A DNA stretch of 52,605 nt from Deltaproteobacteria bacterium (GTDB lineage Bacteria > Desulfobacterota > Desulfobacteria > Desulfobacterales > C00003060). Below the pieces are notes generated by a model. That model was given only the letters and a program-made list of their open reading frames with translations, had not been told where the DNA came from and made no database searches. Of the stretch, positions 4,463 through 22,124 are shown one piece after another. The stretch spans positions 1 through 52,605 of the forward strand of contig QMMN01000014.1 of NCBI GenBank assembly GCA_003647275.1, in the 5' to 3' direction. Position numbers and translations under genes: made by a program. Numbering within the stretch: the stretch's first letter is position 1; each line of letters starts with the position of its first letter.

Positions 4463-4514
4463 TGATAGAGAATTTCCATTTTTATTTTGAGCGTTCAGCT
4501 TAAACCTGATTGAT

Positions 4515-6838: not shown

Positions 6839-6847
6839 GGCGTTTGA

Positions 6848-6945
6848 GCTGGTAAGCTGGTAAGTTGATGAGGTGTCAAATGGTTGAGATTTTACTTCCT
6901 TTGCCTTTCCACACTTAACAGCTTAACAGCTCATCAGCTTATTAG
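6848..6945. repeat. Inverted arrays of an 8-bp unit
   Basis: In the gap between the kinase and regulator genes, three units of GCTGGTAA-type sequence (6848-6871) face four units of CTTAACAG-type sequence (6914-6945). The second array is close to the reverse complement of the first, so the region could fold into a long imperfect hairpin. Related AGCTT-rich words recur near 8400-8446, upstream of the pilin promoter. Confidence 0.5.
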
Positions 6946-6960
6946 CTTCCATAAGGAATT

Positions 6961-8355
6961 ATGACCGAAAAAATTCTGATCATTGAAGATGATGAGGCCA
7001 TGCAATTCTTTCTTTCCGAGGCCTTAAAAAAACAGGGTTACCGGGTTATTCCCTTTTTGGATGCTGAAAGCGCCTTCATCTGGCTGGAAAAAGAACGCTG
7101 TGACCTCATCCTTCTGGATATCAAGCTCCCGGGCATTGATGGCATAGAGGCCATTGGCCCCATCCGGGAGCGATCTGATGCCATCATCATTGTGATCACC
7201 GCTTTTGGGGCTGAGAAGCATGCATTAGAAGCGATCCGGAAAGGCGCCTATGACTATTTCACCAAGCCTTTTAAATTGGAGGAGATGGAAATCACCATCA
7301 AGAGGGCGCTGGAAAAACACCGATTAAGAAGAGAGCTTGAGGCATTAAAACAAAGGGCGAGAGAGTCTATGCTGTTTCCAAATATCATAGGTCAGTCCAG
7401 GGCGATAAAAGAGGTTTTGAGCCAGGTCGCCAGGGTGGCTGATTCTGATGTGACGGCGCTGATTCTGGGAGAAACTGGAACCGGCAAGGAACTCATCGCT
7501 CAGACTATCCATGATCATAGCCCCAGAAAAGGTAAGCCCTTTATCAAGCTCAACTGTGTGGCTATCCCGGAAGGACTCCTCGAAAGTGAACTTTTTGGTC
7601 ATGAAAAGGGGGCATTTACAGGAGCTGTTAGTCGAAAAATAGGAAAATTTGAGCTGGCCGATCAAGGGACCATATTTTTAGATGAGATCGGTGACATGGC
7701 GCTATCTACTCAGGCCAAAATACTCAGGATATTGCAAGAGAAAGAATTGGAAAGGGTTGGCGGAACGCTGCCCATGAAGGTGGATGTCAGGGTGATCGCA
7801 GCAACCAACAAGAATTTGGTATCAGAGGTCAGGGAGAAGAGATTTCGGGAGGATCTGTTTTATCGACTCAACGTGGTCACCATCTTTCTCCCTCCCTTAC
7901 GGGAGCGAAAGGAGGATATTCCCTTACTGGTCGATCACATTATGGAGAAGATGTCCAAAGCATCGGGCAAAAAGATATATCAGATATCAAAAAGCGCCAT
8001 GGAGATCTTGACGGAATATTCATGGCCTGGAAACGTCAGAGAACTTGAGAATGTGGTTGAGCGAGCGATGGTCATGGTGGAAGAGGATACAACGGTCATC
8101 ACCCCATCTCACCTCCCTTTACATCTCAGAGGGTTGCCAGAGGAAATCATTTTCGAATTCCCAAAGGAATCCGCTTCATTGGATGACGCTGTATCGGCAT
8201 TTGAAAAGGAGCTTATTCTAAAAGCCTTATACAAGACAAAGGGTGTCCAATCTCAGGCCGCCCAGCTACTCGGTATCACCGAGAGAAGCATGTGGCATCG
8301 CATAAAGAAATATGCTATCGATATAGATAGGATCAAGGGGCTACAAGATTTGTAG
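6961..8355 (+). CDS. Sigma-54-dependent response regulator (PilR/NtrC family)
   Basis: This 464-residue protein has three domains in the canonical order. The receiver (1-120) has the acidic pair EDD near 9-11, phosphoacceptor Asp53 in LLDIKLPG, and Lys in TKPF. The AAA+ domain has Walker A GETGTGKE near 170, the sigma-54 contact loop GAFTGA near 218, and Walker B IFLDEIGD. The C-terminal Fis-type helix-turn-helix is SQAAQLLGITERSMWHRIKK. It should activate RNA polymerase-sigma-54 when phosphorylated by the kinase just upstream. The obvious targets are the two sigma-54 promoters at 8453 and 14058. A palindrome overlapping its own stop codon is a candidate binding site. Confidence 0.95.
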   Translation: MTEKILIIEDDEAMQFFLSEALKKQGYRVIPFLDAESAFIWLEKERCDLILLDIKLPGIDGIEAIGPIRERSDAIIIVITAFGAEKHALEAIRKGAYDYFTKPFKLEEMEITIKRALEKHRLRRELEALKQRARESMLFPNIIGQSRAIKEVLSQVARVADSDVTALILGETGTGKELIAQTIHDHSPRKGKPFIKLNCVAIPEGLLESELFGHEKGAFTGAVSRKIGKFELADQGTIFLDEIGDMALSTQAKILRILQEKELERVGGTLPMKVDVRVIAATNKNLVSEVREKRFREDLFYRLNVVTIFLPPLRERKEDIPLLVDHIMEKMSKASGKKIYQISKSAMEILTEYSWPGNVRELENVVERAMVMVEEDTTVITPSHLPLHLRGLPEEIIFEFPKESASLDDAVSAFEKELILKALYKTKGVQSQAAQLLGITERSMWHRIKKYAIDIDRIKGLQDL

Positions 8356-8376
8356 CTTATCCTACAATGTTTGTAG
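8340..8376. promoter_or_regulatory. Paired CTACAA-N3-TTGTAG palindromes (candidate enhancer sites)
   Basis: Two perfect palindromes, GCTACAA-GAT-TTGTAGC (8340-8356) and CTACAA-TGT-TTGTAG (8362-8376), have centres 21 bp apart, two helical turns. They lie about 85 and 105 bp upstream of the sigma-54 promoter at 8453. This is the normal place and phasing for upstream activator sites of an NtrC-type protein. The first overlaps the stop codon of the regulator gene. Binding is inferred. Confidence 0.55.
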
Positions 8377-8452
8377 AGAGCGTATGCTTATTGATCTCTG
8401 GTCACTGCTCATTGAGCTTTCAGCTTGTAACTTTGAGCTTATAGCTTTAATG

Positions 8453-8468
8453 TGGCACAAATTTTGCA
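8453..8468 (+). promoter_or_regulatory. Sigma-54 (-24/-12) promoter of the pilin gene
   Basis: TGGCACAAATTTTGCA matches the sigma-54 consensus TGGCAC-N5-TTGCA exactly. It lies about 90 bp before the major pilin-like start codon and just downstream of the two CTACAA palindromes. The sigma-54 activator gene is immediately upstream. Confidence 0.85.
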
Positions 8469-8557
8469 ATTTATATGGAGTAAAAACATGTAAATTCAAG
8501 CTCTTATTTTATATACACTCTAACCGTTTAATTACTCAACCCGGGAGGTGACAAAAA

Positions 8558-8956
8558 ATGAAAAAAGGGAAGAAGCATTTGATGAGAAACAACAAGGGTT
8601 TCACATTAATCGAACTGATCATGGTCATCGTCATTTTGGGCATATTGGCTGCCGTGGCTGTTCCGAAATATTATGACATGAGAAGTGATGCGGCAGATGC
8701 CACAGCCCATGGTATTACCGCTGCCCTGAGAGGGGCTGTGAGCGTGCTTTATGCTAAAAATTTAATCGGCGGCACCAATGGAGCGGCCTATGATATGACA
8801 ACTATCGTTGCTGATGCCCAAATATCAGGTGTGGATGGCTCGGCCACAGTAGGGACCGTTTTTACCGCCACCATTGGAGGCACCGCTTATAGCTGGAATC
8901 TTAACCCCGCTCCAAACCTGCCTACGACCGCAGGAACGATAAACGAAGGTTGGTAA
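8558..8956 (+). CDS. mshA: Type IV pilin-like major subunit (MshA/GspG-like)
   Basis: This is a 132-residue prepilin. A basic 14-residue leader ends in NNKG, followed by FTLIELIMVIVILG: prepilin peptidase would cut after Gly14 and N-methylate Phe15, and Glu19 is the conserved E5 needed for assembly. The hydrophobic helix is followed by a small domain rich in Gly, Ala and Thr with no cysteine, so the usual pilin disulfide loop is absent, as in MSHA/GspG-like subunits. GGAGGTGA lies about 7 bases before the ATG. Its own exact sigma-54 promoter and strong ribosome binding site suggest high, regulated expression and mark it as the major subunit. The YfhO-like gene overlaps its end by 7 bp. Confidence 0.92.
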   Translation: MKKGKKHLMRNNKGFTLIELIMVIVILGILAAVAVPKYYDMRSDAADATAHGITAALRGAVSVLYAKNLIGGTNGAAYDMTTIVADAQISGVDGSATVGTVFTATIGGTAYSWNLNPAPNLPTTAGTINEGW

Positions 8957-11403
8957 GCTTAAAGAGAAACCTTGCTTGCGGCTTACTCCTTTGTGCGTGC
9001 TTCCTTTACTTTGATGACATTCTAAGGGGTGCTTCTCTTTTTATTGAGAGGGATCTGGCCGTTTTCTTCATACCCCCGCGAGCGCTGTGGGTAAGTATGA
9101 TAAAAGGAGGCCAGCTTCCTCTCTGGAACCCCTATTTTTATGGTGGTCAACCGCTGCTCGCCACCCTTCAACCGGGTGTTCTTTACCCGCCAAATATTCT
9201 GCTTCTGCTGCTTCCATTCGATCTTGGCTTTAATTTGATCATTGTTTTTCATTTTTTCTTGGCCGGGATCTTTACTTACTTTTTCATAAAATCGCTGAAG
9301 GGGAGTGATATGGGTGCCTTTATCGGGGCGCTTGCCTTTATGTTCAGCGGCTATCTCCTTTCCGTTCATAACCTTCTCCCCCATCTGCTTTCCGTGGCAT
9401 GGCTTCCTCTGATTCTCCTCTGTTACCAAAAATACCTGAAAAGAGGGGCATTAAGATTCCTGGTGTTGACCGCTGTGTGTTTAACCATCATGTTTCTTGG
9501 GGGGGCAGTAGAGATCTTATACGGCACATTCATCCTGATCTTTGTCCTTTTGTTTTTTCCGGACCCATTTGGGGTCGGGATGTTGACGATGCCTATTCTC
9601 AAAAAGAGGGTTATATCTTTTGGGCTGGTTATATTCCTTGTGGTGTTGCTTTCCGCTGTTCAGTTACTCCCTTTCTTGGAACTCGCGTTTAATTCCATTC
9701 GAGCAGGAGGCCTGAGTTATGAAGAGGCGATCACATGGTCTCTCGATTTCAAGGACCTTGTGCAGTTTTTTGTTCCTGATCCTTATGGATATGGCTATTC
9801 CACAGAAAAATACTGGAGCAATCAAAGCTGGCTCAAGACCATATATCTCGGCATCATCCCGTTTGCCCTTTCTGTGTTTTTTGTTGTAGAAAAAAGAAGA
9901 AAGGTTATTCCCTTTTTAGTCATCATGTTCATATCCCTCATTCTTTCCTTTGGTGGAAACACACCGGTTTACAAGTTCCTGTATCTTTACGTCCCGTTTT
10001 TGAATACCATTCGTTATCCGGTCAAGTTTCTCTTTATCTTCGTTTTTCTTATTTCTGTCATGGCCGGTATGGGGTGTGACAGCCTCTGTAGGCAGATCAG
10101 TGATAAAAACACCGAAACCAAAGGGATTATCCACGGTTTTCTTGTTTTTAGTGTATTCGCGGCCCTTTTGTGGGGCATATTGAACTTTTATGAGGTCCCC
10201 ATTCAAGAATTCTTGCAGACCAAGGGGTTTGCCCCGCCCGAATATAACGATCCAAAGATTAATCTGCACAATATAAAACGGTTCTTGCTCCTTTGTTTAT
10301 TCTTTGGCCCGGTTCTGGTCTTTGGCTGGAACTATCCTAAAAGGAGAACCATCTTTTCTTTTGTGCTCCTTTTCCTATTATCACTCGATCTCTTTTTTGC
10401 GAATAAAGGATACTACCAGAAATATGATGCCGAAAGTTTCCACAAGCCATCGGAAAGCGTAAGCTTTTTAAAAAAGGACACATCCATTTTTCGAATACTG
10501 ACCACGCCGAAGACAACAAAAGAGCCGGTAAAATATTCAAGCATTTTTTCTGATTCGATCAAGGTCGATAAAGAGAAGATTTTACCGGGCTTCAACATAG
10601 AACATCGCATTTATTGTATGGATGGCAGTGAAGTGATCCGCCTTAAGAATTATGAAACCATTCGATCGTTAATATATGGTTCGCCAAAACCTGACAGCAC
10701 CAACCTTTTGTCTTTATTGAACGTCAAGTATATTATTTCCAAGTTTAAAATAGACTCGCCAGAATTTGAGCTGGCCAGGATTATTGGGGATCAAGAGGAT
10801 GATGAAGGCTCACTGAGGATTTACAGAAATTTAAATGTTCTTCCGAGGGCTTTTTTGGTGGACAAATACAAGGTGGTTGGCTCAGAAAAAGCGTACAGAA
10901 ATATCTTACAAAGCAAGACATTTGATCCACGTGAACTGGTTCTTCTGGATAAAGATCCTTTTGACCAGAGAGAAGAACCACCCTTTGCAGGTGTCCGTTC
11001 CTTTGAGGGGACTGGTTTAGCCGATCAACCCGTCCAGCCTTCTGGTGATGAAAAAGAGGGGGTGATCATGACAAAATATGAGACAAACAGGATAGAATTA
11101 GCCGCTTCTTTGAACAAACCCAAATTTCTGTTTTTGAGTGAATCCTATTATCCCGGCTGGAAAGTTTATGTGGATGGCGTCAAGGGGAAAATTTATAGGG
11201 CCAATTATGCCTTTCGCGGAGTCCCCTTAGCACCGGGAAGGCATGAGGTGTTGTTCGTGTATGATCCCCTTAGTTTTAAATTGGGGATGGCTCTGACATT
11301 GTTAGGACTTGCCGTTTGCACTGCACTTTTTTGGAAACGAAAAAACGGAGATTTTCCAGGGAACGAATCAGCAGATGAGCTGGCCGGCCATGAAACGAAA
11401 TAA
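8950..11403 (+). CDS. YfhO-like polytopic membrane protein (GT-C type glycosyltransferase candidate)
   Basis: This 817-residue protein has about a dozen membrane segments in the first two thirds, then an extracytoplasmic C-terminal domain and a final membrane segment near 777-795 (LGMALTLLGLAVCTALFW). The first outside loop contains FIERDLAVFF followed by a W-N-P and G-G-Q-P stretch, the layout of the YfhO/GT-C superfamily, where an acidic residue in this loop is catalytic and the donor is a lipid-linked sugar. Late motifs such as ESYYPGWKVYVDG and YRANYAFRGV are also typical of YfhO proteins. The start is TTG inside the last codons of the pilin gene, so translation is coupled. A pilin-modifying transferase is the natural guess by analogy with tfpO/tfpW genes beside pilin genes, but no substrate is shown. 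Confidence 0.82.
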   Translation: MVSLKRNLACGLLLCACFLYFDDILRGASLFIERDLAVFFIPPRALWVSMIKGGQLPLWNPYFYGGQPLLATLQPGVLYPPNILLLLLPFDLGFNLIIVFHFFLAGIFTYFFIKSLKGSDMGAFIGALAFMFSGYLLSVHNLLPHLLSVAWLPLILLCYQKYLKRGALRFLVLTAVCLTIMFLGGAVEILYGTFILIFVLLFFPDPFGVGMLTMPILKKRVISFGLVIFLVVLLSAVQLLPFLELAFNSIRAGGLSYEEAITWSLDFKDLVQFFVPDPYGYGYSTEKYWSNQSWLKTIYLGIIPFALSVFFVVEKRRKVIPFLVIMFISLILSFGGNTPVYKFLYLYVPFLNTIRYPVKFLFIFVFLISVMAGMGCDSLCRQISDKNTETKGIIHGFLVFSVFAALLWGILNFYEVPIQEFLQTKGFAPPEYNDPKINLHNIKRFLLLCLFFGPVLVFGWNYPKRRTIFSFVLLFLLSLDLFFANKGYYQKYDAESFHKPSESVSFLKKDTSIFRILTTPKTTKEPVKYSSIFSDSIKVDKEKILPGFNIEHRIYCMDGSEVIRLKNYETIRSLIYGSPKPDSTNLLSLLNVKYIISKFKIDSPEFELARIIGDQEDDEGSLRIYRNLNVLPRAFLVDKYKVVGSEKAYRNILQSKTFDPRELVLLDKDPFDQREEPPFAGVRSFEGTGLADQPVQPSGDEKEGVIMTKYETNRIELAASLNKPKFLFLSESYYPGWKVYVDGVKGKIYRANYAFRGVPLAPGRHEVLFVYDPLSFKLGMALTLLGLAVCTALFWKRKNGDFPGNESADELAGHETK

Positions 11404-11454
11404 AGCCTTCAATCCGATTTTCTGGCTGTTTTCTATGGTCATATTCTATATTGC

Positions 11455-11769
11455 ATGAAGAAACCCCGTTCTTTTATCTGGCTCAACCAGGCGAGAAAAC
11501 ACTTACAGAACACAGGTGCAGGTAAAAATTTGCCCCTTGTCTTCGAAAATTCCCTCTATACCGCTATTGTATATGATGAATTGGGGCAATATAAAATGGC
11601 ACGGATTTATTATAAAAAGTCTCTTGCGCTGGCAAAATCCGACAGCATCAGATGCGAGACCGGGCCATTGCAAGAAAGGCTTGCGTATATGGAAAAGGCA
11701 ATTAAGCAACAAAGCGGCTTCACCATGAATGAACATTGTGAGCAAAGCAAACGGATCATATGGACATAA
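11455..11769 (+). CDS. Small TPR-containing hypothetical protein
   Basis: This 104-residue protein has one recognisable tetratricopeptide helix pair (NSLYTAIVYDELGQYKMARIY, then KKSLALAKSD) between an N-terminal basic stretch and a polar tail. It lies 51 bp after the YfhO-like gene and about 180 bp before the first minor pilin. The ATG has no strong ribosome binding site, so the exact start is uncertain. It may be a degenerate remnant of a larger TPR protein. No function can be assigned. Confidence 0.5.
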   Translation: MKKPRSFIWLNQARKHLQNTGAGKNLPLVFENSLYTAIVYDELGQYKMARIYYKKSLALAKSDSIRCETGPLQERLAYMEKAIKQQSGFTMNEHCEQSKRIIWT

Positions 11770-11952
11770 GCGTTCAGGTGTTTCATCTTTTCAGCCTGTT
11801 GCCCAAATCAGTTTATGGCAATGTTGCTGGTTTTTCGTAGCTGATAAGCCGCCAAAGATTGTCTGGATAGCCATTTGGGCAACAACCTGTTTTGTTGAAA
11901 CTGAAAGCTGGCTGCCTACATATTGACATTGCTTCGGCACCGTGCCAGAATA

Positions 11953-12378
11953 ATGATTATGAAAAATGATGGCGGGTTTACCATTATTGAACTTGTCATG
12001 GTTATAACTACGATCGGTATCCTGGCGTTTATTGCTATATCAAAGTACCCCACCACGGAAATCTCGTTAGAAGCAGCTGCAGACCTAATAAAATCAGACA
12101 TTCGATCTGTACAGGCCCTGGCCATGGCCAAGCATGCAGGTCAAAGTCTCACCTTCGATAGTTCAACGCAATATAGCTTTCCGAAACTGGGAGGGGGAAC
12201 CGAAACGAGGGATTTTAATAATATCTTCCGCGGGGAGATTAGTCTGAGCGCGTATCCTACAGCCATTACATTTAATTCTCTTGGAGAACCGACCGCAGAC
12301 CAGGACAGTTCAATTACCGTATCGAACGGAAGTTCACGAACTCTGACGGTGTTACAATATACCGGAAAGGTCGAATAG
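11953..12378 (+). CDS. Minor pilin/pseudopilin, GspH/MshC-like
   Basis: This is a prepilin of about 141 residues. The short leader MIMKNDGG is followed by FTIIELVMVITTIGILAFIA, with Glu at mature position 5. The text after the helix (AAADLIKSDIRSVQALAMA) is typical of GspH/FimT/MshC proteins, in which this segment precedes a beta-rich domain. The start was set at ATG 11953 (11959 is also possible) because it leaves a short basic leader; an in-frame upstream TTG would add ten unlikely residues. It is the first of four consecutive minor pilin-like genes. The next starts one base after its stop. Confidence 0.85.
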   Translation: MIMKNDGGFTIIELVMVITTIGILAFIAISKYPTTEISLEAAADLIKSDIRSVQALAMAKHAGQSLTFDSSTQYSFPKLGGGTETRDFNNIFRGEISLSAYPTAITFNSLGEPTADQDSSITVSNGSSRTLTVLQYTGKVE

Positions 12379-12379
12379 G

Positions 12380-12838
12380 ATGATCTCAAAAAAACAAAAA
12401 GGGATCACCCTGATAGAGTTGATTGTTTTTATTGTTGTGGTTTCGGTGGCCATCCCGGCGATTGTTGGTCCGGTGTTGTCACTTTTAAAGGAGAGCACAA
12501 AGCCGGAAAAGGCTGTTACGGCTGATTTTTTAGGCCAACAGATTTTAGAAGTCATCACAGCGAATGACTTTCCCACCCTTACCGGCACCAACTCGGCTCC
12601 GCCTATACCTCCGAGTTCGGTGGAAACCGACATCAATAATACGATTGATGCTTCATGGCCTGCTGACTATTCTTATCATTGGAGTATATACTACATAACG
12701 GACACTGATCTCGACACCCAACAAACTTCTGCCACAAACTACGTAAGAATCAATATCACGGTCACCGATCCGGATGGTACTGATTATCATTATTATTCTA
12801 TCGTGACTAAAAGGGTCAAAGATGATCCTGAGGGATAG
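12380..12838 (+). CDS. Minor pilin/pseudopilin, GspI/MshD-like
   Basis: This is a 152-residue prepilin with leader MISKKQKG and mature start ITLIELIVFIVVVSVAIPAI, keeping Glu5. The region after the helix (LGQQILEVITANDF) matches the MshD/GspI pattern, in which an AxxLxQxxLEE-like stretch follows the transmembrane helix. A Thr/Asp-rich beta domain completes the protein. The gene is packed tightly between the GspH-like and GspJ-like genes, as in MSHA operons (C-D-O-P). It probably forms part of the pilus tip or initiation complex. Confidence 0.82.
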   Translation: MISKKQKGITLIELIVFIVVVSVAIPAIVGPVLSLLKESTKPEKAVTADFLGQQILEVITANDFPTLTGTNSAPPIPPSSVETDINNTIDASWPADYSYHWSIYYITDTDLDTQQTSATNYVRINITVTDPDGTDYHYYSIVTKRVKDDPEG

Positions 12839-12874
12839 GTAGCAGTGTTGTTGGAATTCCAAGATACTGAGCTC

Positions 12875-13414
12875 ATGCGAAAGAATAAAGGATTCACTCT
12901 AATCGAAATTATAGTAGTGATTGTCATAATGGCAGTCCTTGGTGTTTTTGGTTATCGTTTCCTCTCCACCTCTATGCATACCTATTCCATGATGGAAAAA
13001 CAAAAGGGCCTTTTGGATGAAGCTGCTATGGCTATGGAGCGGATCAGCCGGGAATTGAGGGATGCAAACTCTATTTCGTCTCCGACATCCGGAAGTACAT
13101 CTTCCACCTTAACCTTCACAAAAAGCCATGGATCCCCCGAGGAAACCAGCACTTACGATATCACCTTTCAGCTTTTCTCAGGTACGCTGCAAAGGGTGGG
13201 GAGCACGACAGTCAACCTTGCTGAAGCGGTTTCTGTATTTACGGCAGAGCGGGGAACATCAGAAGAAATAACGATTTTCCTTACTTTACAGGAAGGCACT
13301 GGAGAACAAATCACGCTTCAGAGCTATATTTGTCCCAAAAACTTGCCTTATCCAGATCCTGAGGCCCCTTCAGGAAGAAATTTCGGTGGGTGTTGGGAGG
13401 AAGATTTTCAATGA
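12875..13414 (+). CDS. Minor pilin/pseudopilin, GspJ/MshO-like
   Basis: This is a prepilin of about 179 residues. The leader MRKNKG is followed by FTLIEIIVVIVIMAVLGVFG with Glu5. The following AAMAMERISRELRDANSI is the R-x-x-R-E-L-R segment typical of GspJ/MshO minor pilins. ATG 12875 is chosen because it leaves a normal 6-residue leader; the upstream in-frame TTG at 12845 would give an implausibly long, acidic leader. The stop overlaps the next start as ATGA. Confidence 0.85.
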   Translation: MRKNKGFTLIEIIVVIVIMAVLGVFGYRFLSTSMHTYSMMEKQKGLLDEAAMAMERISRELRDANSISSPTSGSTSSTLTFTKSHGSPEETSTYDITFQLFSGTLQRVGSTTVNLAEAVSVFTAERGTSEEITIFLTLQEGTGEQITLQSYICPKNLPYPDPEAPSGRNFGGCWEEDFQ

Positions 13415-13848
13415 TGAAAGGATTTGCATCAGGTAATTCCCAAAATAAAGGCGTTACCCTCGTTACCCTTATTATCGCTATCACGATATTTGGTGTTTTG
13501 GTAACGGTTTTTTCTTACGTGATCATTGCCAAACATGGGTCTGAGCCGCTTTATGTCCAATCCACGCAGGCTTACGCTATTGCCCAGGCCGGGATAGAAT
13601 ATGGCATTCGTTATGCGGCGGATAATGGTTATTGGGCCGCTGGCTCTCCTGGCATTACTGAATCGTTCGGCAACGGAAGCTTCACTCTTGTATACACAGC
13701 GGCCACTGAGACTGATCCGAGCTTACTGACATCAACCGGGACAGTCGGGGTTGCAGAGAGACAGATTATATTACACCACTTTGTAGGCTGGGTTGAAGGT
13801 CAGGCGATCACGACAGATCCAAATGACCCTGCTTATGCAACAACATAA
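13411..13848 (+). CDS. Minor pilin-like protein, MshP/PilX-like
   Basis: This protein of about 145 residues has the prepilin-like start NSQNKG followed by VTLVTLIIAITIFGVLVTVF. Position 5 of the mature form is Thr instead of Glu, a known feature of GspK/PilX/MshP-type minor pilins. The segment AYAIAQAGIEYGIRYAADNG matches the A-x-x-A-G-x-E region of MshP/PilX proteins. The start codon sits in an ATGA overlap with the previous gene. It closes the four-gene minor pilin block. Confidence 0.8.
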   Translation: MMKGFASGNSQNKGVTLVTLIIAITIFGVLVTVFSYVIIAKHGSEPLYVQSTQAYAIAQAGIEYGIRYAADNGYWAAGSPGITESFGNGSFTLVYTAATETDPSLLTSTGTVGVAERQIILHHFVGWVEGQAITTDPNDPAYATT

Positions 13849-13933
13849 GCCAAGCGATGATCATATGGGGGTTTTTAGGAGTTCATTCCTGGGCGATAAA
13901 TGCATGGTGGGTGGATGAATCGCACTGCTATAA

Positions 13934-13949
13934 TGTCAAAAAATTGACA
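13934..13949. promoter_or_regulatory. TGTCAA-N4-TTGACA palindrome (possible activator site)
   Basis: This perfect 6+6 inverted repeat has four A bases between the arms and is centred about 115 bp upstream of the second sigma-54 promoter. It shares the CAA...TTG core with the palindromes at 8340-8376 but has different outer bases and a 4-base rather than 3-base spacer. It could be a weaker site for the same regulator or an unrelated operator. Confidence 0.35.
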
Positions 13950-14057
13950 CATTCTGTTAAAATAGTTTAACTATGGCGGCTTTGGAGGAGGACTTAAATG
14001 GATAGTAAATGCTCATAACCAAGTGATTTTAAGGGGATTAACCCATTTGTTTAAAAA

Positions 14058-14073
14058 TGGCACAAATATTGCA
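14058..14073 (+). promoter_or_regulatory. Sigma-54 (-24/-12) promoter of the Cys-rich gene
   Basis: TGGCACAAATATTGCA differs from the pilin promoter at 8453 by one spacer base and matches TGGCAC-N5-TTGCA exactly. It lies about 95 bp before the GTG start of the Cys-rich protein gene. This implies co-regulation with the pilin. Confidence 0.82.
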
Positions 14074-14167
14074 TTAAAAGTAATGGTATTTAATTGTCTT
14101 GTTATGATACCACTCGACGAATCAACCAGTGAACTATTTGACCGTCTCTATACAGGAGGTGAAAAAT

Positions 14168-14743
14168 GTGAAGAGTTTATCCAGGATTTCAAAAAAAGGT
14201 ATCATAATCATTTCCGCTGTGATTATGATCATGGCAGGGGTACTGGTGGCTGTTTTACCCTCTCCTTCGGATGGATGTGGCGGCGGCAGTTGTAAAGGTG
14301 GTCACCATGGCCACAACGACGATACATCGTACGTTAATGTCCCTATCCTTAACAATACCGGAAAAACAATAACCATAACCAAGATGCATATCGTGGTCCC
14401 AGGTGAGTGTGTTTGTACTAAAACTAAAGGGGATGGCACATGCAAAGAATGGAGCGGTGAAGTGCGAGTAAAAGATATCTACTTTGGTGGAACAGGTGGC
14501 CCAACCGGAACAAATGTTTTTTCGACTGACGACACTGAATGCTCCTGCAGAGTAACCTGTGAGGGTTATACCTCCGAATTCAATCAAAATGGTGGTAAAT
14601 ATGATTTCACCGGCATAAAGGTGCTGTGTACGATTTCACTTGACGTGAACCCAGCCCCTACAGGTGAGTATACGGTAACGTACTATTTTACGATCGAAGG
14701 AGATCCAGAGATGAAGTCCAATACGATAACGTTTACTCTCTAA
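14168..14743 (+). CDS. Exported Cys/His-rich protein of unknown function, sigma-54 controlled
   Basis: This is a 191-residue protein. A basic N-terminus and hydrophobic segment (KKGIIIISAVIMIMAGVLVA) export or anchor it. Immediately after comes a compact Gly/Cys/His cluster, CGGGSCKGGHHGHNDD, that could bind metal. The remaining ~140 residues look beta-rich (VPILNNTGKTITITKMHIVV) and carry seven further cysteines, including CVC, CSC and VTC groups, nine in all, suggesting disulfides or metal sites outside the cytoplasm. The start is GTG 14168, 8 bases after AGGAGGT; the overlapping ATG at 14166 reads directly into TGA. It sits where MSHA loci carry mshQ but shows no clear similarity to it. 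I do not recognise the family. Confidence 0.75.
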   Translation: MKSLSRISKKGIIIISAVIMIMAGVLVAVLPSPSDGCGGGSCKGGHHGHNDDTSYVNVPILNNTGKTITITKMHIVVPGECVCTKTKGDGTCKEWSGEVRVKDIYFGGTGGPTGTNVFSTDDTECSCRVTCEGYTSEFNQNGGKYDFTGIKVLCTISLDVNPAPTGEYTVTYYFTIEGDPEMKSNTITFTL

Positions 14744-14852
14744 AGGCTTCCAATTCCCTCAGCCCCTCTTCTCCAAAGGCCGGTGAGGTTGCTGGAAAAC
14801 CGTGCATGCTTCCGTTTTTCAGCAATCTCCATCAGCCCTTTTCTGTTTTCTC

Positions 14853-14880
14853 TTGACAATTTCACTCCATTTTTTAATAT
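14853..14880 (+). promoter_or_regulatory. Sigma-70-like promoter
   Basis: TTGACA is followed after 16 bases by TAATAT. It points toward the 2-TM gene and the PilM-type operon, about 260 bp downstream. It is judged from consensus alone. Confidence 0.45.
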
Positions 14881-15019
14881 TATCAGAATTTTGGATATGA
14901 TTTATTGTGTTGGGCGCCCTTCCGGGTGGGGGGTTGCTTCGCGGGCTTATCTTATGCACCCGGTAAGGGAAAAAATTATTTTGTATAGCTCCTCTTGACC
15001 CCGTTCTAAAGGATGAGGA

Positions 15020-15065
15020 TTCTGCCTTGCGGCAGCGCTTCGCGTCCGGGGAGCAGGCCGATCAA
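15020..15065 (+). repeat. Partial copy of palindromic repeat family A
   Basis: These 46 bases match the last 46 bases of the copy at 34368-34443 with two mismatches. They include the CTGCC-TTGC-GGCAG hairpin and the TTCGCGTCCGGGG core, and end in CCGATCAA. The first hairpin of the full element is missing. Confidence 0.75.
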
Positions 15066-15139
15066 AAGTGGCCGCAAGTTTTACCTTGTGAACTGATTGA
15101 GGGATCGCCTATTTGTGGGAGCTGTGCCCATATTTGCAC

Positions 15140-15439
15140 ATGAGACAAGTAAAAGTGTTTTTATTAAAATATTTTGGAGAGTCACTTGTCCTATCTATTC
15201 TTATAGCCCTTGTCATCATTCATTATGTTCTGGTACAGAAGATAGCCCCGCTCAATTTCTATTATATTTTGGCCCTTCTCGCTTGTTATTATCAAGGCAC
15301 TGAAATCCTACGACAAACAGGGATTGTTTTGAAAGGCACCATTCCAATGATACTTGCTCACCACGACGCCTATGCCATGGTGGATGATAAGGTCCGAAGG
15401 TCGTCGAGGCGTTTAAACAGATCAAATCTCACGAGTTAA
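15140..15439 (+). CDS. Small two-transmembrane-segment protein
   Basis: This is a 99-residue protein. Two hydrophobic helices (ESLVLSILIALVIIHYVLVQ at about 13-32 and FYYILALLACYYQ near 38-50) are followed by a basic, polar tail (DDKVRRSSRRLNRSN). Its stop lies 3 bases before the PilM-type start, so it is probably the first gene of that operon. No strong ribosome binding site is visible, and an upstream TTG at 15113 is an alternative start. It does not resemble a known MSHA component, and its function is unknown. Confidence 0.55.
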   Translation: MRQVKVFLLKYFGESLVLSILIALVIIHYVLVQKIAPLNFYYILALLACYYQGTEILRQTGIVLKGTIPMILAHHDAYAMVDDKVRRSSRRLNRSNLTS

Positions 15440-15442
15440 GAG

Positions 15443-17149
15443 ATGAATAAATTCATGGGGATCATTTCAAGAATACCCTTTGGATCGACGACTTCTATAG
15501 GGTTGGATATCGGTACCGATTCAATTAAGTTTTTAAAATTAAAGAGAAAAGGTGGATCATATGAGCTTCTATCCTATGGCATGGCCTCAGTCTCACATTT
15601 GAAGACCAAGCCCCTGGAAGAACAATCGGCCGCGCTTTCAGATATTCTTGCAGAGCTTCTAAAAGGTGAAAAAAAGGGGACAGAAATATTTACTGCTGTT
15701 TCAGGGTCGCAAGTGACAATAAAAACGATTAATATTCCTCGTATGCCAAAGGCTGAATTTGAAAAAGCCATTCTTTGGATTAGCAGAAAGCATATATCTG
15801 TCCCCTTAGAAGAGGCCAATTTTGACTATAAGATACTGGGGGAGATCGAGGAGCGAAAGATTATAAAGTATGAGGTTATGATTGTGGCGGCCGAAAAGGG
15901 CTTGATCAATGATCAAGTAGGCCTTTATCGTAAAACCGGGCTAAAAGTTGGCGGCATCTCGGTGACCCCCTTTGCTCTGTGGAATTTATTGGGGATGACG
16001 AAAACCGGCCCACCAAGTATTGCATGGCTAGATATCGGAGCAAGATTTGCTACGATTGCCGTCTTTCAAGATCATATCCTGAAGTTTTCAAGGGAGATTC
16101 TCACGGCAGGTGATAGTATCACCGAATCTATAAAGTCTTTTACTTCTTTACTTGATGAAGAGGCTTTTTCTGATGAAGACGCTGAAAGATTAAAAAAGGA
16201 ATATGGTCTTTCGGGACAGGATGTTCGACCTGAAATTGCAAGGTCCATAACACCCGTTATTGTCCGGCTGATTGATGAAGTCCAGAGATCATTTTCTTTT
16301 TACCAGCAAAGACACCCCGAGGTTTCTATTGAGAAAATTTATTTGACCGGAGGAACAGCCAGACTCAAAGGCCTGCCTGCCGTGATGGAGGAAAGGCTGG
16401 GGATCGATGTAGAGGTCATAAATCCGTTCAAAAAGATAAAAATAGGCCTTTCCCCCATGGAAACGGCCAAGCTCAATGAATTGGCCCCCGCATTTTCGGT
16501 AGCTACAGGTTTAGCCTTAAGTGGGGGCGAACGAATCAATCTCCTTCCAACTGAAATCAAAGAGCAAAGGGCGATCGCCCCACTGATCCCAGTCCTGAGG
16601 GTATCCGCCATATCCTTAATTGCCATCCTTTCTCTCTTATATTTGTATGCAGCTGCTCAGGTGAAGGCCGACAGAAAATTACTGAATATCTGGAAAACCA
16701 CGATTCAAACTTTTACGGCTAAAGCCCCTGCTCCCCAACAAATCAAGGAAAAGATCGATCGAATCAATCGCATGAAAAAAACCATAGAGAGATTGGAAGA
16801 ACGTGGCCCCATAGAACCTTTCATACTCAAAGAAATTGCGAATATCTTGCCTGAATCAATTGCCCTGAAAAGTCTATCTATCAGCTATTTTGAGGAATTC
16901 CAGATAGAAAAAACAGCAGGGGAGAACAGAGGGTCTGCAGGGCAAGAACCTGCTAAAAAAGCGATGCGTTTTCAAATAGAAGGGACAGTATGTGGCGAGG
17001 AAGCATCCCTTGAAGTGGTGCTGACTCGATTCATGATCGCCTTAGATTCATCTCCGTTTCTAAAAAATCCCGTATTGATGTCTCAAAAAAGAAATGTCTT
17101 GAACGGGACGAATGTCCTTGCGTTTGAGCTGCGTTGCGATTTACAATAA
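15443..17149 (+). CDS. PilM-PilN fusion (MshI-like) pilus inner-membrane protein
   Basis: This is a 568-residue protein. Residues 1-360 are an actin-like PilM domain (STTSIGLDIGTDSIKFLKL at 11-29, IAWLDIGARFATIAVF, and the phosphate-2-like LTGGTARLKGLP). A transmembrane helix near 385-405 (RVSAISLIAILSLLYLYAAA) is followed by a PilN-like periplasmic part with coiled coil (INRMKKTIERLEER) and the PilN signature region FILKEIANILPESIALKSLS. Cytoplasmic PilM and membrane PilN are normally separate proteins that dock through the PilN N-terminus; here they are covalently joined. It would link the assembly ATPase to the PilO/PilP/secretin complex. Confidence 0.88.
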   Translation: MNKFMGIISRIPFGSTTSIGLDIGTDSIKFLKLKRKGGSYELLSYGMASVSHLKTKPLEEQSAALSDILAELLKGEKKGTEIFTAVSGSQVTIKTINIPRMPKAEFEKAILWISRKHISVPLEEANFDYKILGEIEERKIIKYEVMIVAAEKGLINDQVGLYRKTGLKVGGISVTPFALWNLLGMTKTGPPSIAWLDIGARFATIAVFQDHILKFSREILTAGDSITESIKSFTSLLDEEAFSDEDAERLKKEYGLSGQDVRPEIARSITPVIVRLIDEVQRSFSFYQQRHPEVSIEKIYLTGGTARLKGLPAVMEERLGIDVEVINPFKKIKIGLSPMETAKLNELAPAFSVATGLALSGGERINLLPTEIKEQRAIAPLIPVLRVSAISLIAILSLLYLYAAAQVKADRKLLNIWKTTIQTFTAKAPAPQQIKEKIDRINRMKKTIERLEERGPIEPFILKEIANILPESIALKSLSISYFEEFQIEKTAGENRGSAGQEPAKKAMRFQIEGTVCGEEASLEVVLTRFMIALDSSPFLKNPVLMSQKRNVLNGTNVLAFELRCDLQ

Positions 17150-17161
17150 TTACGGTAAAAA

Positions 17162-17812
17162 ATGAAGATCAAGTTTGGCGTTCGTGAAAAAATCATTCTT
17201 TTTGTAGTGATATACCTTGGAGCCATTTTTTTGTGGTATAAGTTCCTGTACTTGCCCAAAAATAATGAGTTGAAGAGGATAAAACAGGAGTTGAAATCGA
17301 TTCAAATGCAGTACAAACCCTTTTTGGGTGATACTTTTCGACCCCCCTTATTAGAAGAAGAAACGGCGATCTCTGAAAAATACCATGAACTTACAGCAAA
17401 GATACCTGAAAGAGATGAAATCCCTTCTGCGATGATTCAGATGGCCAAAATCGGACAAGGAAGAGATATTCGGATACTTTCTACAAAACCTGTAACATCT
17501 CGATTATTTGCCAAGCACAGGCTGCCGAAAGGGTCCCAATTAAAAGAGATCCCCGTGGATATGGTCTTAGAGGGAAGGTTTGTCGACATAGGTCGCTATT
17601 TGTTTGATCTTATGAATTTGCCCTTTTTGGGTGGATATAATAAAATACAGATGGAGACGTCTAAAAAGATATATCCGGAAATAAGGGCTAATATTACATG
17701 TCTGCTTCTATTTTTCGATAACCGACAGAAACATACCAAGAGGCGCATCAAATCGTTTACATCTAAACAGGCTGTTGCCCAAACAGCTTTGAACGTAGTT
17801 CTTGACGGATAG
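17162..17812 (+). CDS. PilO-like (MshJ-like) pilus alignment protein
   Basis: This 216-residue bitopic protein has a transmembrane helix at about residues 11-28 (IILFVVIYLGAIFLWYKF), a coiled coil (KNNELKRIKQELKSIQMQY), and the periplasmic ferredoxin-like domain of PilO, with IPERDEIPSAMIQMAKIG and the late PFLGGYNKIQMETS strand. PilO pairs with PilN to form the periplasmic alignment complex. It starts 12 bp after the PilM-PilN fusion. The C-terminal tail is longer and more basic than usual (KRRIKSFTSKQ). Confidence 0.85.
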   Translation: MKIKFGVREKIILFVVIYLGAIFLWYKFLYLPKNNELKRIKQELKSIQMQYKPFLGDTFRPPLLEEETAISEKYHELTAKIPERDEIPSAMIQMAKIGQGRDIRILSTKPVTSRLFAKHRLPKGSQLKEIPVDMVLEGRFVDIGRYLFDLMNLPFLGGYNKIQMETSKKIYPEIRANITCLLLFFDNRQKHTKRRIKSFTSKQAVAQTALNVVLDG

Positions 17813-17828
17813 ACAAACACTTCTGCAA

Positions 17829-17861
17829 TTTATTGCAAACAATATTGTGCTTTTCTTAGTA
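17829..17861 (+). repeat. 33-bp element repeated inverted at 22120-22152
   Basis: TTTATTGCAAACAATATTG and the following GTGCTTTTCTTAGTA recur on the opposite strand at 22152-22120 with about one base deleted and one substitution. This copy lies between the PilO-like and PilP-like genes. The pair brackets the PilP-to-MshN genes. Confidence 0.6.
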
Positions 17862-17873
17862 AATTAGCATTCA

Positions 17874-18386
17874 ATGAAAACGCCGAATAAATATATAACG
17901 ATTGTTTTTGTCTTGGCGGTTCTTTTTGCGGCCTATGAACTTGTTATTTCGCCTGCCAAGAAAAAGCCTGCTTCCAAACCCAAGAAGACAGTTCAATCGT
18001 CGCTACCAGAATTGCTGCTACCCGTATCACAACCAGCCTCGTTAGAGCATTTGCCCGCTGGCTTACCAAAGGTGTCGCGAGATGGTTCTATCATAAAGCG
18101 AAAAAAGGTAAAAAACCTTGGATGGGGTAGAGATCCGTTTTTATTTCCAGAAGGGATAGAACCTTATAAAAAGGTTACAAGAGTTGAACAAGAAAAAATA
18201 CTATCCCGTTTAAAGGTCAATGCCATTTTGATCAGCGGGAAACAAAAAGTGGCCACGATCGACCATGCTCCATATGTGGTTTCAATTGGTGATTGGATTG
18301 AAAACGAGCAGGTTTTAGAAATTGAGCCGGGTCGGATCATCCTTGGAAAAGGCGATAAGAAGCGAGAGCTTTTGCTGGAACCTTGA
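17874..18386 (+). CDS. PilP/MshK-like periplasmic protein
   Basis: This 170-residue protein has an N-terminal membrane anchor (YITIVFVLAVLFAAYELVIS, residues 7-26), a Pro/Lys-rich linker, then a small beta domain with GRDPFLFPEG and LKVNAILISGKQKVATIDH, typical of the PilP/GspC homology region that contacts the secretin. It keeps the expected position between the PilO-like protein and the secretin. GspC and PilP share this fold, so the exact name is approximate. The secretin gene starts 16 bp after its stop. Confidence 0.8.
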   Translation: MKTPNKYITIVFVLAVLFAAYELVISPAKKKPASKPKKTVQSSLPELLLPVSQPASLEHLPAGLPKVSRDGSIIKRKKVKNLGWGRDPFLFPEGIEPYKKVTRVEQEKILSRLKVNAILISGKQKVATIDHAPYVVSIGDWIENEQVLEIEPGRIILGKGDKKRELLLEP

Positions 18387-18402
18387 AAAATCGAAGAATA
18401 AA

Positions 18403-19905
18403 ATGATGAAGTATAAAACGATTTATTGTGTGTTGATTCTGGTATTGACGCTGAGTTGTGCCAGTACAGAAAAAAAGGCCGAGCAGGTCATACCCGAAGT
18501 CAAGATGCCACCTCCCGTGATTACCAAGAGTGGATTAGAAGAGATCCCTCTGGTGCAACTTGAAGAACCCCAAAAGCCCCCGGAGAGACTTTATTCCATT
18601 GCTACAAGAGATTCAGATATCAAGTCTCTTCTCATGAGTTTTTCAAAGGATAGCGAATATAACATCATATTGGATCCAGACGTCAGCGGAACAGTGACCA
18701 TGGACCTGAAAAGGGTAACCCTGGAAGAGGCTTTAGACGCTATTCTGACCCCGCTTGGTTACGTATATCAAAAGCAAGCCAATATGATCAAGGTTTTCAG
18801 GCCCACACCGGAGACCCGGATATTTACCCTGAACTATTTGGCCACTGTAAGAACAGGGACAGCAAGTGTAAAAGCCAAGACGTCAGGAGGCGTTGAGAAA
18901 GAGGACGAGGTAGCAGCAGAGGTCATCAGTACGGAGAAAGCTGATATATGGGATGAGATAGAAAAGGGCCTGAAACAGTTGCTTTCAGAGGATGGCAAAT
19001 TTCTCACAAACAAAATGGCCTCTATCATTGTGGTGACAGATTACCCGGCTAACCTAGAAAAAGTTGCTGAATTTTTGGAAGCGATCGAAGGGACCATTCA
19101 GAGGCAGGTTCTCATAGAGGCCAGGATTATTGAGGTGACACTTTCGGATGACTACCAGATGGGCCTTAATTGGGAACGTATTTTAGGCGGCGGACGCGGC
19201 ACAATGGATCAAACCTCCTTTGCGCCTGTGTCAGACGCTATAACCGGTCAAACCGGCGTTTTTCAATTTGCCTTTAACTACAATCATGTAACTGGATTGC
19301 TTCATGCTATGGCTGCCCAGGGGAAGGTTAACATTATCTCAAAGCCCCGGATTACCACCATGAACAACCAAAGGGCCATTATCAAGGTGGGAACTGAAGA
19401 TGTATATTTTAAAGTAGAAGAAGATGAGGGGACTACGGGTAAAACAACATATACTTATACCCCCGAGTTTTTCACCATAGGGGTGGTTTTGGACGTGACA
19501 CCTCAAATAGGCCCTGGAGATGAGCTCACCCTGCACATTCATCCTGTCATTACCGAGAAGGTCGATGAAGAAGAATATCCCTTTGGGGGAGGAACGGGAA
19601 CGGTTCCCACGGTTCCCATTGTAAGTATCAGAGAATCGAGCTCTGTTGTTCGTGTAAAATCTGGCCAAACATTGGTATTGGCCGGCTTGCTGATGAAAAA
19701 AAACAGTGAGACAATAGTTGGCATACCCGGATTAATGAATATACCTTTCCTGGGTTCCCTTTTTCGCTATAAGAAGATAGAAACAGAAAAGACCGAGTTG
19801 GTCGTTACTTTGACCCCGAGGATTCTCGTGGGCCAAGGGATCGATGACTTTAGTGATGATGAGTTAACAAAACTCTTGGGAAATAATGGAAGCCACATGC
19901 CGTAG
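18403..19905 (+). CDS. mshL: MshL-type secretin lipoprotein
   Basis: This 500-residue outer-membrane secretin would form the gated pore for the fibre. The signal peptide ends in a lipobox (LVLTLSC, then AS), so it should be lipidated on Cys. An STN domain near residues 75-125 (IILDPDVSGTVTMDLKRV) precedes an N-type domain (VVTDYPANLEKVAEFLEAIE) and the secretin domain with IEARIIEVTLSDDYQMGLNW, then VPIVSIRESSSVVRVKSGQ and the late LVLAGLLMKKN and FLGSLFRYKK motifs. This compact architecture is that of MshL rather than the longer PilQ/GspD. ATG 18403 was chosen because the signal peptide begins there. Confidence 0.93.
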   Translation: MMKYKTIYCVLILVLTLSCASTEKKAEQVIPEVKMPPPVITKSGLEEIPLVQLEEPQKPPERLYSIATRDSDIKSLLMSFSKDSEYNIILDPDVSGTVTMDLKRVTLEEALDAILTPLGYVYQKQANMIKVFRPTPETRIFTLNYLATVRTGTASVKAKTSGGVEKEDEVAAEVISTEKADIWDEIEKGLKQLLSEDGKFLTNKMASIIVVTDYPANLEKVAEFLEAIEGTIQRQVLIEARIIEVTLSDDYQMGLNWERILGGGRGTMDQTSFAPVSDAITGQTGVFQFAFNYNHVTGLLHAMAAQGKVNIISKPRITTMNNQRAIIKVGTEDVYFKVEEDEGTTGKTTYTYTPEFFTIGVVLDVTPQIGPGDELTLHIHPVITEKVDEEEYPFGGGTGTVPTVPIVSIRESSSVVRVKSGQTLVLAGLLMKKNSETIVGIPGLMNIPFLGSLFRYKKIETEKTELVVTLTPRILVGQGIDDFSDDELTKLLGNNGSHMP

Positions 19906-19920
19906 CATACACAGAGCATA

Positions 19921-20069
19921 GAAGCGGGTTCAAAACCCTCCTCTCGCTTGTTTGACCATTTTGAGAAGTTCTAAGCTCGCTTTGCTAAAATTGTACAACT
20001 CGGGCTAACACCCTCAAACAGTTACAATTTTTTACGCTCCACTGCAGCAGGCTGCATGGAGCTCCAATA
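19921..20069 (+). other. Structured spacer with three potential hairpins
   Basis: Between the secretin and ATPase genes lie GGGTT-CAA-AACCC (19926-19938), a 9-bp stem AAAATTGTA/TACAATTTT (19987-20031) enclosing GGG...CCC and followed by T residues, and GCTCCA-C-TGCAG-CAGG-CTGCA-TGGAGC (20036-20062). The second could act as a terminator or attenuator. The third, with the following CCAATAAG, resembles the end of repeat family B at 50861-50913. Confidence 0.45.
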
Positions 20070-20094
20070 AGCCGTAGAAATTCCAAGGCATGTC

Positions 20095-21006
20095 ATGTAC
20101 ACAGACTTTTTTGAACTAAAGGAAAAACCCTTCAAACTTACCCCGGATCCGAAATTTCTTTTTCTGAGTGAAACCCATCTGGAAGCCCTGAATCATCTGA
20201 TATATGGTATAAAAAATCGAGAAGGTTTTATCCTGATTACCGGTGATGTGGGATCAGGCAAGACGACGATTTGCCGGGTTCTTTTAGAAAAAATGGGCCC
20301 TGACACAAATACCGCTTTGATCTTTAATCCAATGTTGTCAGAAGAAGAATTGCTATGCGCTATCTTACAGGATTTTGGGGTCGCATACAGAGGAACAACA
20401 AAGAAAGAGCTGGTAGACGAACTCAACGCCTTTTTGTTGAAGCAATTAGAAGAGGGTAAGAATGTGGTTCTTATCGTCGATGAAGCCCAGGATTTAACCA
20501 TATCTCTCCTCGAACAGATCCGCCTTCTTTCAAACCTGGAAACCGAGAAAGAAAAGTTGATCCAGATCGTCTTGTTCGGTCAAAATGAGCTAAAGGGCAA
20601 ACTAAACTTGCCCGCTTTGAGGCAACTGAATCAAAGGATAGCTATTCGCTATGAGCTTCGGTATCTGAATCGGGAGGAGACAGAAAAATACATCTATTAC
20701 AGGTTAACGATTGCCGGCTCTGATGGGCGGGTCGTATTTACACCCAGTGCATTAAATAGAATATTCAAATATTCAAAAGGGGTTCCCAGGCTTATCAATA
20801 TCGTTTCAGATCGGGCCCTCTTAAGCGCTTATATGCAACTCACAAACAAGATTACAAAGAAGTTGGTCGAGAGAGGCATTAAGAGCCTGGAGGCCACAGA
20901 ACGGACTTTCCCGAGGAGAAAGTGGATCACAGTAGCCGTACTTTCTATCTTGGTTACGCTGTTTAGCCTTTTCTTAGTATTTCGTATGACAGCCGGGCTA
21001 AAATGA
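20095..21006 (+). CDS. MshM/ExeA(GspA)-like AAA ATPase
   Basis: This is a 303-residue protein. The N-terminal motif FFELKEKPFKLTPDPKFLFL is diagnostic of the ExeA/GspA/MshM family. Walker A is GDVGSGKTTI near residues 50-59, Walker B is VVLIVDEAQDL, and an Arg-rich sensor region follows (LRQLNQRIAIRYELRYL). A C-terminal membrane helix (ITVAVLSILVTLFSLFLVF) anchors it. In type II secretion, GspA with GspB helps place the secretin through the cell wall; here it probably does so for the MshL-type secretin. It overlaps the following gene as ATGA. Confidence 0.88.
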   Translation: MYTDFFELKEKPFKLTPDPKFLFLSETHLEALNHLIYGIKNREGFILITGDVGSGKTTICRVLLEKMGPDTNTALIFNPMLSEEELLCAILQDFGVAYRGTTKKELVDELNAFLLKQLEEGKNVVLIVDEAQDLTISLLEQIRLLSNLETEKEKLIQIVLFGQNELKGKLNLPALRQLNQRIAIRYELRYLNREETEKYIYYRLTIAGSDGRVVFTPSALNRIFKYSKGVPRLINIVSDRALLSAYMQLTNKITKKLVERGIKSLEATERTFPRRKWITVAVLSILVTLFSLFLVFRMTAGLK

Positions 21007-22124
21007 GTCTTATTTCAGAGGCCTTGAGAAGGGCCCAACAAGTCAAAATCAGGAAAGAAAAAACCAGCGCCCATAATGGAATATCCGGCGATATTTTAAT
21101 GGGATCTCAAATCGTCGTCAGTGTTCCACAAAAGAGACCCTTGTCACAAAATCGATTGATTATTCTTGGGTTTTTGAGTCTTCTCCTGGTTGTTTCTATT
21201 CTTTGGAACACCTCTTTATTTCGAAAAACTTCTACCTTAAAAAAAGAAGTCCCCATTCAGGAGACAACCCCTGCTGCCATATTCGGAGAAAAAGAAGAGG
21301 CTCTGTCCGAGAAAATAACAACGCTTGACGCCTCATACAAAGCTACAGGTTCCAAACCAGAAAAAATCATTTCTCAAGAACCCGCTTCCAGCATTCGCCA
21401 TCAGGGAAAAAGCCTTGCTCTTGTTTCCCGTGAGGAGGCAGCCCTTACACAGCCGGCGACAGATAAACCGGTGTCACCAGAGGCTTCCTCTTTCGCACGA
21501 AAAAGCGCTAAGAAGGAAGAAACCTTTCCCACGAAAATAACTCACCACCTCAATCTCGGCCTTTCTTACCAAAGTACAAATCATACAGCGACCGGCAAAA
21601 AGGCGTATGGGAGGGCCATAGACTCGACTGAGCAGGATACTTTGCAGACTGATAGTCCGAGCGCCTCGCTCGCGACAAGACAGCAGCAGGGAGAAGATCC
21701 CCCTCGTATCGCATCAGGTCCTTTACATGTAAAAGCTGAGAGCAATATCTCTGAAAAGAATTATAATAACTTAGGCGTAACCTATTATCTTCAGGGGGAC
21801 CTAAAACAGGCTGTGGAGCAATTCAAAACAGCTATACAACTTAACCCAAACAGTATTGAAAGCTATGTCAATCTAGGTATTATATATAAAAAGCAAAACA
21901 GATTCGAAGACGCTCTTAAAGCGTATAAAAAAGCCGTTTCCTTGAAACCAACTTTTCCAGAGCCGTATTATAACTTAGGGATTCTCTATGATGATGCAGG
22001 AGATTTCAAAAGGGCAGCAGGCGCCTACCGCCGATTTTTGCAGTTAGCGCCAGAAAAATACCAGTCTCAAAAGCAGAAAGCTCAAAAAAGGCTCAATATT
22101 ATTCAATCATATATCAAATACTAA
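21003..22124 (+). CDS. GspB/MshN-like membrane TPR protein
   Basis: This is a 373-residue protein. It opens with MSLISEALRRAQQ, the usual cytoplasmic start of GspB/MshN proteins, followed by one membrane helix near 50-68 (LIILGFLSLLLVVSILW) and a long, low-complexity Ser/Lys/Glu-rich linker. The C-terminal 120 residues form three TPR repeats (YNNLGVTYYLQGDLKQAVEQ, YVNLGIIYKKQNRFEDALKA, YYNLGILYDDAGDFKRAAGA). It is translationally coupled to the ExeA-like ATPase, as mshM-mshN and gspA-gspB are. The short MS-ISEAL start and the TPR domain fit MshN better than GspB. It is the last gene of the pilus locus. Confidence 0.82.
   Translation: MSLISEALRRAQQVKIRKEKTSAHNGISGDILMGSQIVVSVPQKRPLSQNRLIILGFLSLLLVVSILWNTSLFRKTSTLKKEVPIQETTPAAIFGEKEEALSEKITTLDASYKATGSKPEKIISQEPASSIRHQGKSLALVSREEAALTQPATDKPVSPEASSFARKSAKKEETFPTKITHHLNLGLSYQSTNHTATGKKAYGRAIDSTEQDTLQTDSPSASLATRQQQGEDPPRIASGPLHVKAESNISEKNYNNLGVTYYLQGDLKQAVEQFKTAIQLNPNSIESYVNLGIIYKKQNRFEDALKAYKKAVSLKPTFPEPYYNLGILYDDAGDFKRAAGAYRRFLQLAPEKYQSQKQKAQKRLNIIQSYIKY

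Follow-up and report, generated by a model that had tools for sequence, protein, structure and literature searches.

A Cys-rich gene in the mshQ slot of an MSHA-like pilus locus

The stretch of DNA that we analyzed (52,605 nt in full, hereafter the window) carries an MSHA-like type IVa pilus locus in which genes encoding PilB, PilC, PilS, PilR, the pilin, a YfhO-like membrane glycosyltransferase, a TPR protein, and four minor pilins (pp1–pp4) are followed by a gene for a Cys-rich protein, a small membrane ORF, a PilM-PilN-like (PilM/MshI-like) fusion, PilO, PilP, an MshL-like secretin, and an ExeA/MshM-like ATPase (Table 1). The gene order in Vibrio is mshB-A-C-D-O-P-Q (PMC4624765). Placed between the MshP-like gene (pp4) and the PilM/MshI-like, mshI-side genes, the Cys-rich gene occupies the mshQ slot, which bears out the proposal, made from the sequence alone, that it replaces MshQ in the locus.

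We place the start of the gene at GTG 14168, giving a product of 191 amino acids; the GTG at 14129, used in the ORF listing, would instead yield 204. Three related ORFs have the same frame, start, and Shine-Dalgarno sequence at 45–55% identity, and we therefore take the gene to be real. Its product has a basic N-terminus and a hydrophobic stretch at about residues 12–30, then CGGGSCKGGHHGHNDD, which begins at residue 37 inside a Gly-rich linker, and seven further Cys beyond the linker (81, 83, 92, 125, 127, 131, and 154), so that every element of the architecture first described for it is present. The label "beta-rich" for the ectodomain denotes a sequence pattern together with a low-confidence structural model.

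Table 1. Features of the pilus locus around the Cys-rich gene, and MSHA-like loci used for comparison
Feature	Position	Strand	Basis
Two perfect CTACAANNNTTGTAG copies 21 bp apart (8341, 8362), candidate pilin enhancer/activator sites	8341–8376	+	
Sigma-54 promoter of the major pilin, TGGCACAAATTTTGCA	8453–8468	+	Pattern scan
Major pilin	8558–8956	+	
MshP-like minor pilin (pp4), stops at the linker where the G616 domain begins	13390–13848	+	
Candidate enhancer site, TGTCAAAAAATTGACA dyad, 108 bp before the -24 element	13934–13949	+	
Sigma-54 -24/-12 promoter of the Cys-rich gene, perfect TGGCACN5TTGCA, TGGCACAAATATTGCA	14058–14073	+	Pattern scan
AGGAGG ribosome-binding site	14154–14159	+	Sequence
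Cys-rich protein, export predicted, 191 aa, GTG start	14168–14743	+	ORF and homologues
N-terminal basic segment and hydrophobic helix, residues 1–31, MKSLSRISKKGIIIISAVIMIMAGVLVAVLP	14168–14260	+	Conservation, model
Gly/Cys/His linker, residues 35–52, His not conserved	14270–14323	+	Three-member alignment
Beta-rich ectodomain with seven Cys; probable counterpart, C-terminal domain of the G616 MshP-like protein	14327–14740	+	
3' flank: hairpin and sigma-70-like TTGACA..TAATAT (14853–14881)	14748–14883	+	Homology with the DNA that follows the G616 domain
Strong RNA hairpin downstream of the gene, without a T-run terminator	14778–14837	+	z -3.06
Loci with differing MshP-like C-terminal parts	L075:10229–11935; L076:5601–6419; L081:3709–5358; L085:10334–11878		

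In other pilus loci, a small MerR-like helix-turn-helix gene stands between the MshP-like and PilM-like genes at L085:12100–12483 and L081:5650–5840, and small genes that by sequence look like PilZ follow the MshP-like gene at L123:12879–13809 (genome G616) and L124:1267–2353 (genome G406). The YfhO-like gene, whose product is a candidate pilin glycosyltransferase, lies directly after the pilin gene here (8950–11403) and also in L085, L117, and L123; L081 carries one too, on a contig that stops short of the pilin. The pilus locus (2700–22100) has 43.9% GC, compared with 49.6% for 22–52 kb, and the window's MshP-like gene is not in 21 congeners, yet is 60–67% identical in another family. Given this GC contrast and gene distribution, the locus was probably acquired horizontally. 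Mis-binning of the contig is unlikely, with 49.6% GC in the 22–52 kb flanks and 48.6–50.4% in the rest of the genome. Rfam identified no family in 8–16 kb.

Homologues, conservation, and sigma-54 promoters

No described or curated family matches the product: Pfam and NCBIfam held nothing at cut-off (best score 18 bits, for DUF4360, against a cut-off of 27), and the PDB searched by sequence gave no match. Homologues were detected in one other genome only, G652, among overlapping sets of 389 genomes of the order, 395 of the phylum, and 60 near relatives. Nothing beyond the protein itself and G652 was returned by whole-protein searches of the 60 near relatives and 395 phylum genomes, by a search of 17 genomes of G652's family, or by searches of viral contigs, plasmids, and, in a single-sequence scan, genome contigs. 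A later genome-contig scan had as its sole match the G652 contig VMSQ01000011.1 (Desulfobacteraceae bacterium S3_36, a MAG). Weak matches with E values of 1e-3 to 0.05, many with stops, were missed by a profile search of the order genomes and were taken as chance.

G652 encodes two tandem copies of 184 and 197 amino acids, 55% and 45% identical to the window protein, directly after orthologous pp2-pp3-pp4 genes (61–65% identity); on its other contigs, PilC, the pilin, the YfhO-like protein, and pp1 are 67%, 62%, 69%, and 65% identical, respectively. In the genomes searched, the Cys-rich protein was never found away from orthologous minor-pilin genes, and neither sequence searches nor Foldseek assigned it to a well-characterized family. 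In these respects the sequence-only reading, which had put it forward as a candidate new pilus-associated protein, is supported, and the association with the pilus appears strengthened; taken as a whole, that reading is supported in part. By sequence, the three known members make up a new, small protein family that occurs alongside an MSHA-like pilus.

Conservation is uneven along the protein. Residues 1–31 share 74% and 65% identity with the two G652 homologues and the remainder 51% and 44% (Fisher p 0.03 and 0.05), a better-kept membrane segment than exported part, which argues against a mere cleaved signal peptide. The ectodomain (44–51% identical) diverges faster than the pilus neighbors (60–70% identical overall). 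C92, C125, C127, and C154 are invariant in the three members; the HHGH stretch is missing in paralogue 1 and replaced or out of place in paralogue 2, and C42 is not conserved. Because these Cys are kept and the His-rich stretch and C42 are not, we infer that what marks the family is disulfides or structure rather than a metal site rich in His. A bacterial lipoprotein was considered and rejected, since paralogue 2 does not keep the Cys that follows SDG, and SDGC departs from a canonical lipobox.

The sigma-54 boxes of the Cys-rich gene and the pilin gene are both perfect and differ by one spacer base, as the sequence-only reading had it. They are the sole perfect TGGCACN5TTGCW sites in the window; genome-wide there are 12, compared with 4 for the pattern read backward. 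With a GG/GC -24/-12 element upstream, the Cys-rich gene is predicted to be sigma-54 dependent, a dependence likely common to it and the pilin gene. Its own box is conserved in G652, where a perfect copy (TGGCACGAATATTGCT, L099:3861) lies 119 bp before the first paralogue. Directly before this box is a run of imperfect "ttagctctttgctct" repeats (L099:3660–3860). No box with three or fewer mismatches was found in the 315 bp before the G652 pilin gene, and none with at most one mismatch in the stretch upstream of the G616 pilin gene.

The dyads upstream of these promoters are also not the same. Those of the pilin, CTACAANNNTTGTAG, overlap the end of pilR and were not found upstream of the 14058 promoter. 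The Cys-rich gene has TGTCAAAAAATTGACA (13934), and its G652 homologue is preceded by yet another TGACA/TGTCA dyad, TGACAAATTTTGTCA; TGTCA/TGACA dyads occurred in 0.2–0.3% of shuffles. Strict co-regulation with the pilin is doubtful because the upstream dyads differ and the pilin box is missing in G652 and G616. What stands of the co-regulation originally proposed is that both genes have sigma-54 boxes; the idea of a shared activator for them may be wrong.

A probably related domain fused to a minor pilin

Close relatives of the window's MshP-like protein (pp4) are present in three of 311 tested genomes: G652, G616, and G406. Among the resulting four MshP-type genomes, two carry the stand-alone Cys-rich gene; in G616 there is a domain fused to the MshP-like protein, and in G406 a decayed one. 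A profile search revealed no stand-alone gene in G616, and its MshP-like protein continues for about 130 residues past the stop of the window protein. This extension and the ectodomain align at their starts (YVPLINN against YVNVPILNN) and at their ends (GTWYCTFLY..SSSVKFDM against GEYTVTYYF..SNTITFTL). The match is modest (BLASTP E 0.004; hhalign E 0.06; shuffle p 0.0013 and 0.0027), and the second G652 paralogue alone does not match the G616 domain significantly. Downstream of the G616 domain, the DNA contains a hairpin followed by TTGACA..TTTTTT.ATATTAT, and the top match to this flank among 1166 stretches of the 52-kb window falls directly downstream of the Cys-rich gene; its hairpin part also matches DNA after the second G652 copy. 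The ectodomain therefore probably has a fused counterpart at the C-terminus of the G616 MshP-like minor pilin.

In G406, the MshP-like protein (L124:517–1020) has a Gly-Pro tail and stops after GGCCCAGGT repeats; a same-frame remnant of the domain, NNISVPLMNNYNCDIYIYDIELAKEGG, lies beyond the stop and then breaks off. The direction of change, split or fusion, cannot be told from these sequences. In other MSHA-like loci, the C-terminal parts of MshP-like proteins vary and include LamG (lectin-like) with DUF2341, weakly archaellin-like, and T2SSK-type domains, as well as others that are unassigned. In more distant loci, the C-terminal domain of the MshP-like protein does not match the ectodomain significantly, and we therefore claim only the G616 domain as a likely relative.

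AlphaFold run on the single sequence produced a model with a helix at residues 9–26 and eleven strands (pLDDT 55); a three-row alignment made it worse (pLDDT 36). With the model as query, Foldseek returned nothing below 1e-3. Four of the ten top-scoring VIA-align rows are FlaF/FlaG entries (4zbh, Z 7.2 over 92 residues at 2.8 Å; 5tuh, Z 6.9; 6pbk; 5tug; Z 6.6–7.2 in all), which we treat as no more than a lead, because the model is poor and a Z under 8 may reflect just a common fold. Looser, non-specific fold matches include two copper proteins, CrdA and YcnJ (its CopC-like domain). Structure prediction is thus in keeping with the beta-rich domain first proposed, at low model confidence, and identified no ligand-binding fold.

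Candidate roles and known systems

With moderate confidence, we interpret the Cys-rich protein as the stand-alone counterpart of the C-terminal module of a modular minor pilin, acting as an accessory display module of the MSHA-like type IVa pilus. The observations behind this display reading are the position of the gene, its own conserved sigma-54 box, its association with minor-pilin genes wherever found, the fast divergence of the ectodomain, and the similarity to the G616 domain in both sequence and 3' flank; against it, the match to that domain is modest, no ligand-binding fold was identified, the N-terminus lacks Glu5, and the helix is short for a pilin. The N-terminal hydrophobic segment would export the protein and then remain in the membrane or pack with the minor-pilin complex, and periplasmic disulfides would stiffen the beta domain, which may be displayed on the cell surface or at the tip of the pilus and there bind a ligand, as is thought for MshQ and for the modules of modular pilins. 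The gene would be an optional addition that assembly does not depend on, and an enhancer-binding protein would turn it on. Its product, encoded in the MshQ slot, is probably an accessory display or adhesin-like part of the pilus.

Among other explanations, a membrane-tethered periplasmic beta-sandwich that anchors the pilus in the envelope or aids its assembly there, in the manner of archaeal FlaF/FlaG (ArlF/ArlG), appears rather unlikely. The architecture is the same, one N-terminal membrane helix and a beta-sandwich encoded in a type IV filament locus, the matching VIA-align rows are FlaF/FlaG of Sulfolobus, and an N-terminus better kept than the domain fits a retained anchor. However, the structural evidence comes from a poor model with Z below 8, the orthologous pilus loci of G616 and G406 lack the gene, which argues that assembly does not need it, and rapid ectodomain divergence and duplication better fit a ligand-facing role. 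We also consider it unlikely that the protein is an atypical pilin, with prepilin peptidase cleaving a class III-like leader (SKKG^II) and the protein polymerizing as a minor subunit. All three members share an unchanged ISKKGII, K-G-I-I agrees with the FlaFind motif (PMC4307647), and the MshP-like protein of the same locus likewise lacks Glu5; yet the hydrophobic stretch spans 19–20 residues, ends in Pro, and gives way to the Gly linker without a long alpha-1 helix, and Pfam N_methyl was not detected.

That the protein is exported but has no pilus function, being a mere neighbor, seems quite improbable. That the gene has a promoter and a transcription unit to itself, and that orthologous loci can lack it, would suit such a protein, but its constant company of these minor-pilin genes in the genomes searched and its resemblance to the G616 MshP C-terminal domain would not. 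Least credible is a metal-binding exported protein acting through CGGGSCKGGHHGHNDD and the Cys cluster. The window sequence itself suggests this role, and CrdA and YcnJ appear among the fold matches; those matches are non-specific, however, and the early suggestion of metal binding is weakened because neither the His-rich stretch, missing or replaced in the G652 paralogues, nor C42 is conserved.

It is possible, though we regard it as doubtful, that the locus represents a novel means of equipping type IV pili: a minor-pilin C-terminal module made as an independent membrane-anchored protein from its own sigma-54 promoter, tandem-duplicated in a relative, and presented in trans. The pilus "head" could then be switched without touching the pilin operon. 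More generally, the locus would show how the module that determines what a type IV pilus binds can undergo exchange, fusion, splitting, duplication, or loss while the minor-pilin core stays constant, and how its expression can be uncoupled from that of the filament. The family so defined is linked to the MSHA-like pilus of uncultured sulfate-reducer relatives.

MshQ is the putative adhesin of the MSHA locus (PMC7096442). The Cys-rich protein shares with it the slot after mshP and candidacy as a displayed non-pilin component, but no sequence relation to MshQ or its domains was found (Pfam and NCBIfam at cut-off). MshQ is also far larger and belongs to the same operon as mshP. The likeness to archaeal FlaF/FlaG, a single predicted N-terminal membrane helix and an immunoglobulin-like domain encoded within a type IV filament locus, rests on a weak fold match to a model with pLDDT 55; no sequence relation was found, and the protein here is Cys-rich and not one that its pilus requires. 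Pilins of the modular kind, with ligand-binding modules grafted on, are widespread, and in PilB and PilC of Streptococcus sanguinis a functional module is presented by minor pilins (PMC8179133, PMC9934059). Their module, however, is covalently part of the pilin, whereas here it would be a separate protein with its own membrane segment, in which the Gly of KKG-II is present, but the Glu5 and long alpha-1 helix that accompany Gly-1 in the class III signal peptide of modular pilins are not seen (position 5 is Ser or Phe). Another comparison is with the C-terminal domain of the G616 MshP-like protein (L123:11698–12564), which is fused to its pilin, has few Cys, and is without its own promoter or hydrophobic helix, but which is likewise beta-rich, aligns at both ends, and has the same position relative to the 3' flank; the ectodomain resembles this fused module, yet exists as a separate protein.
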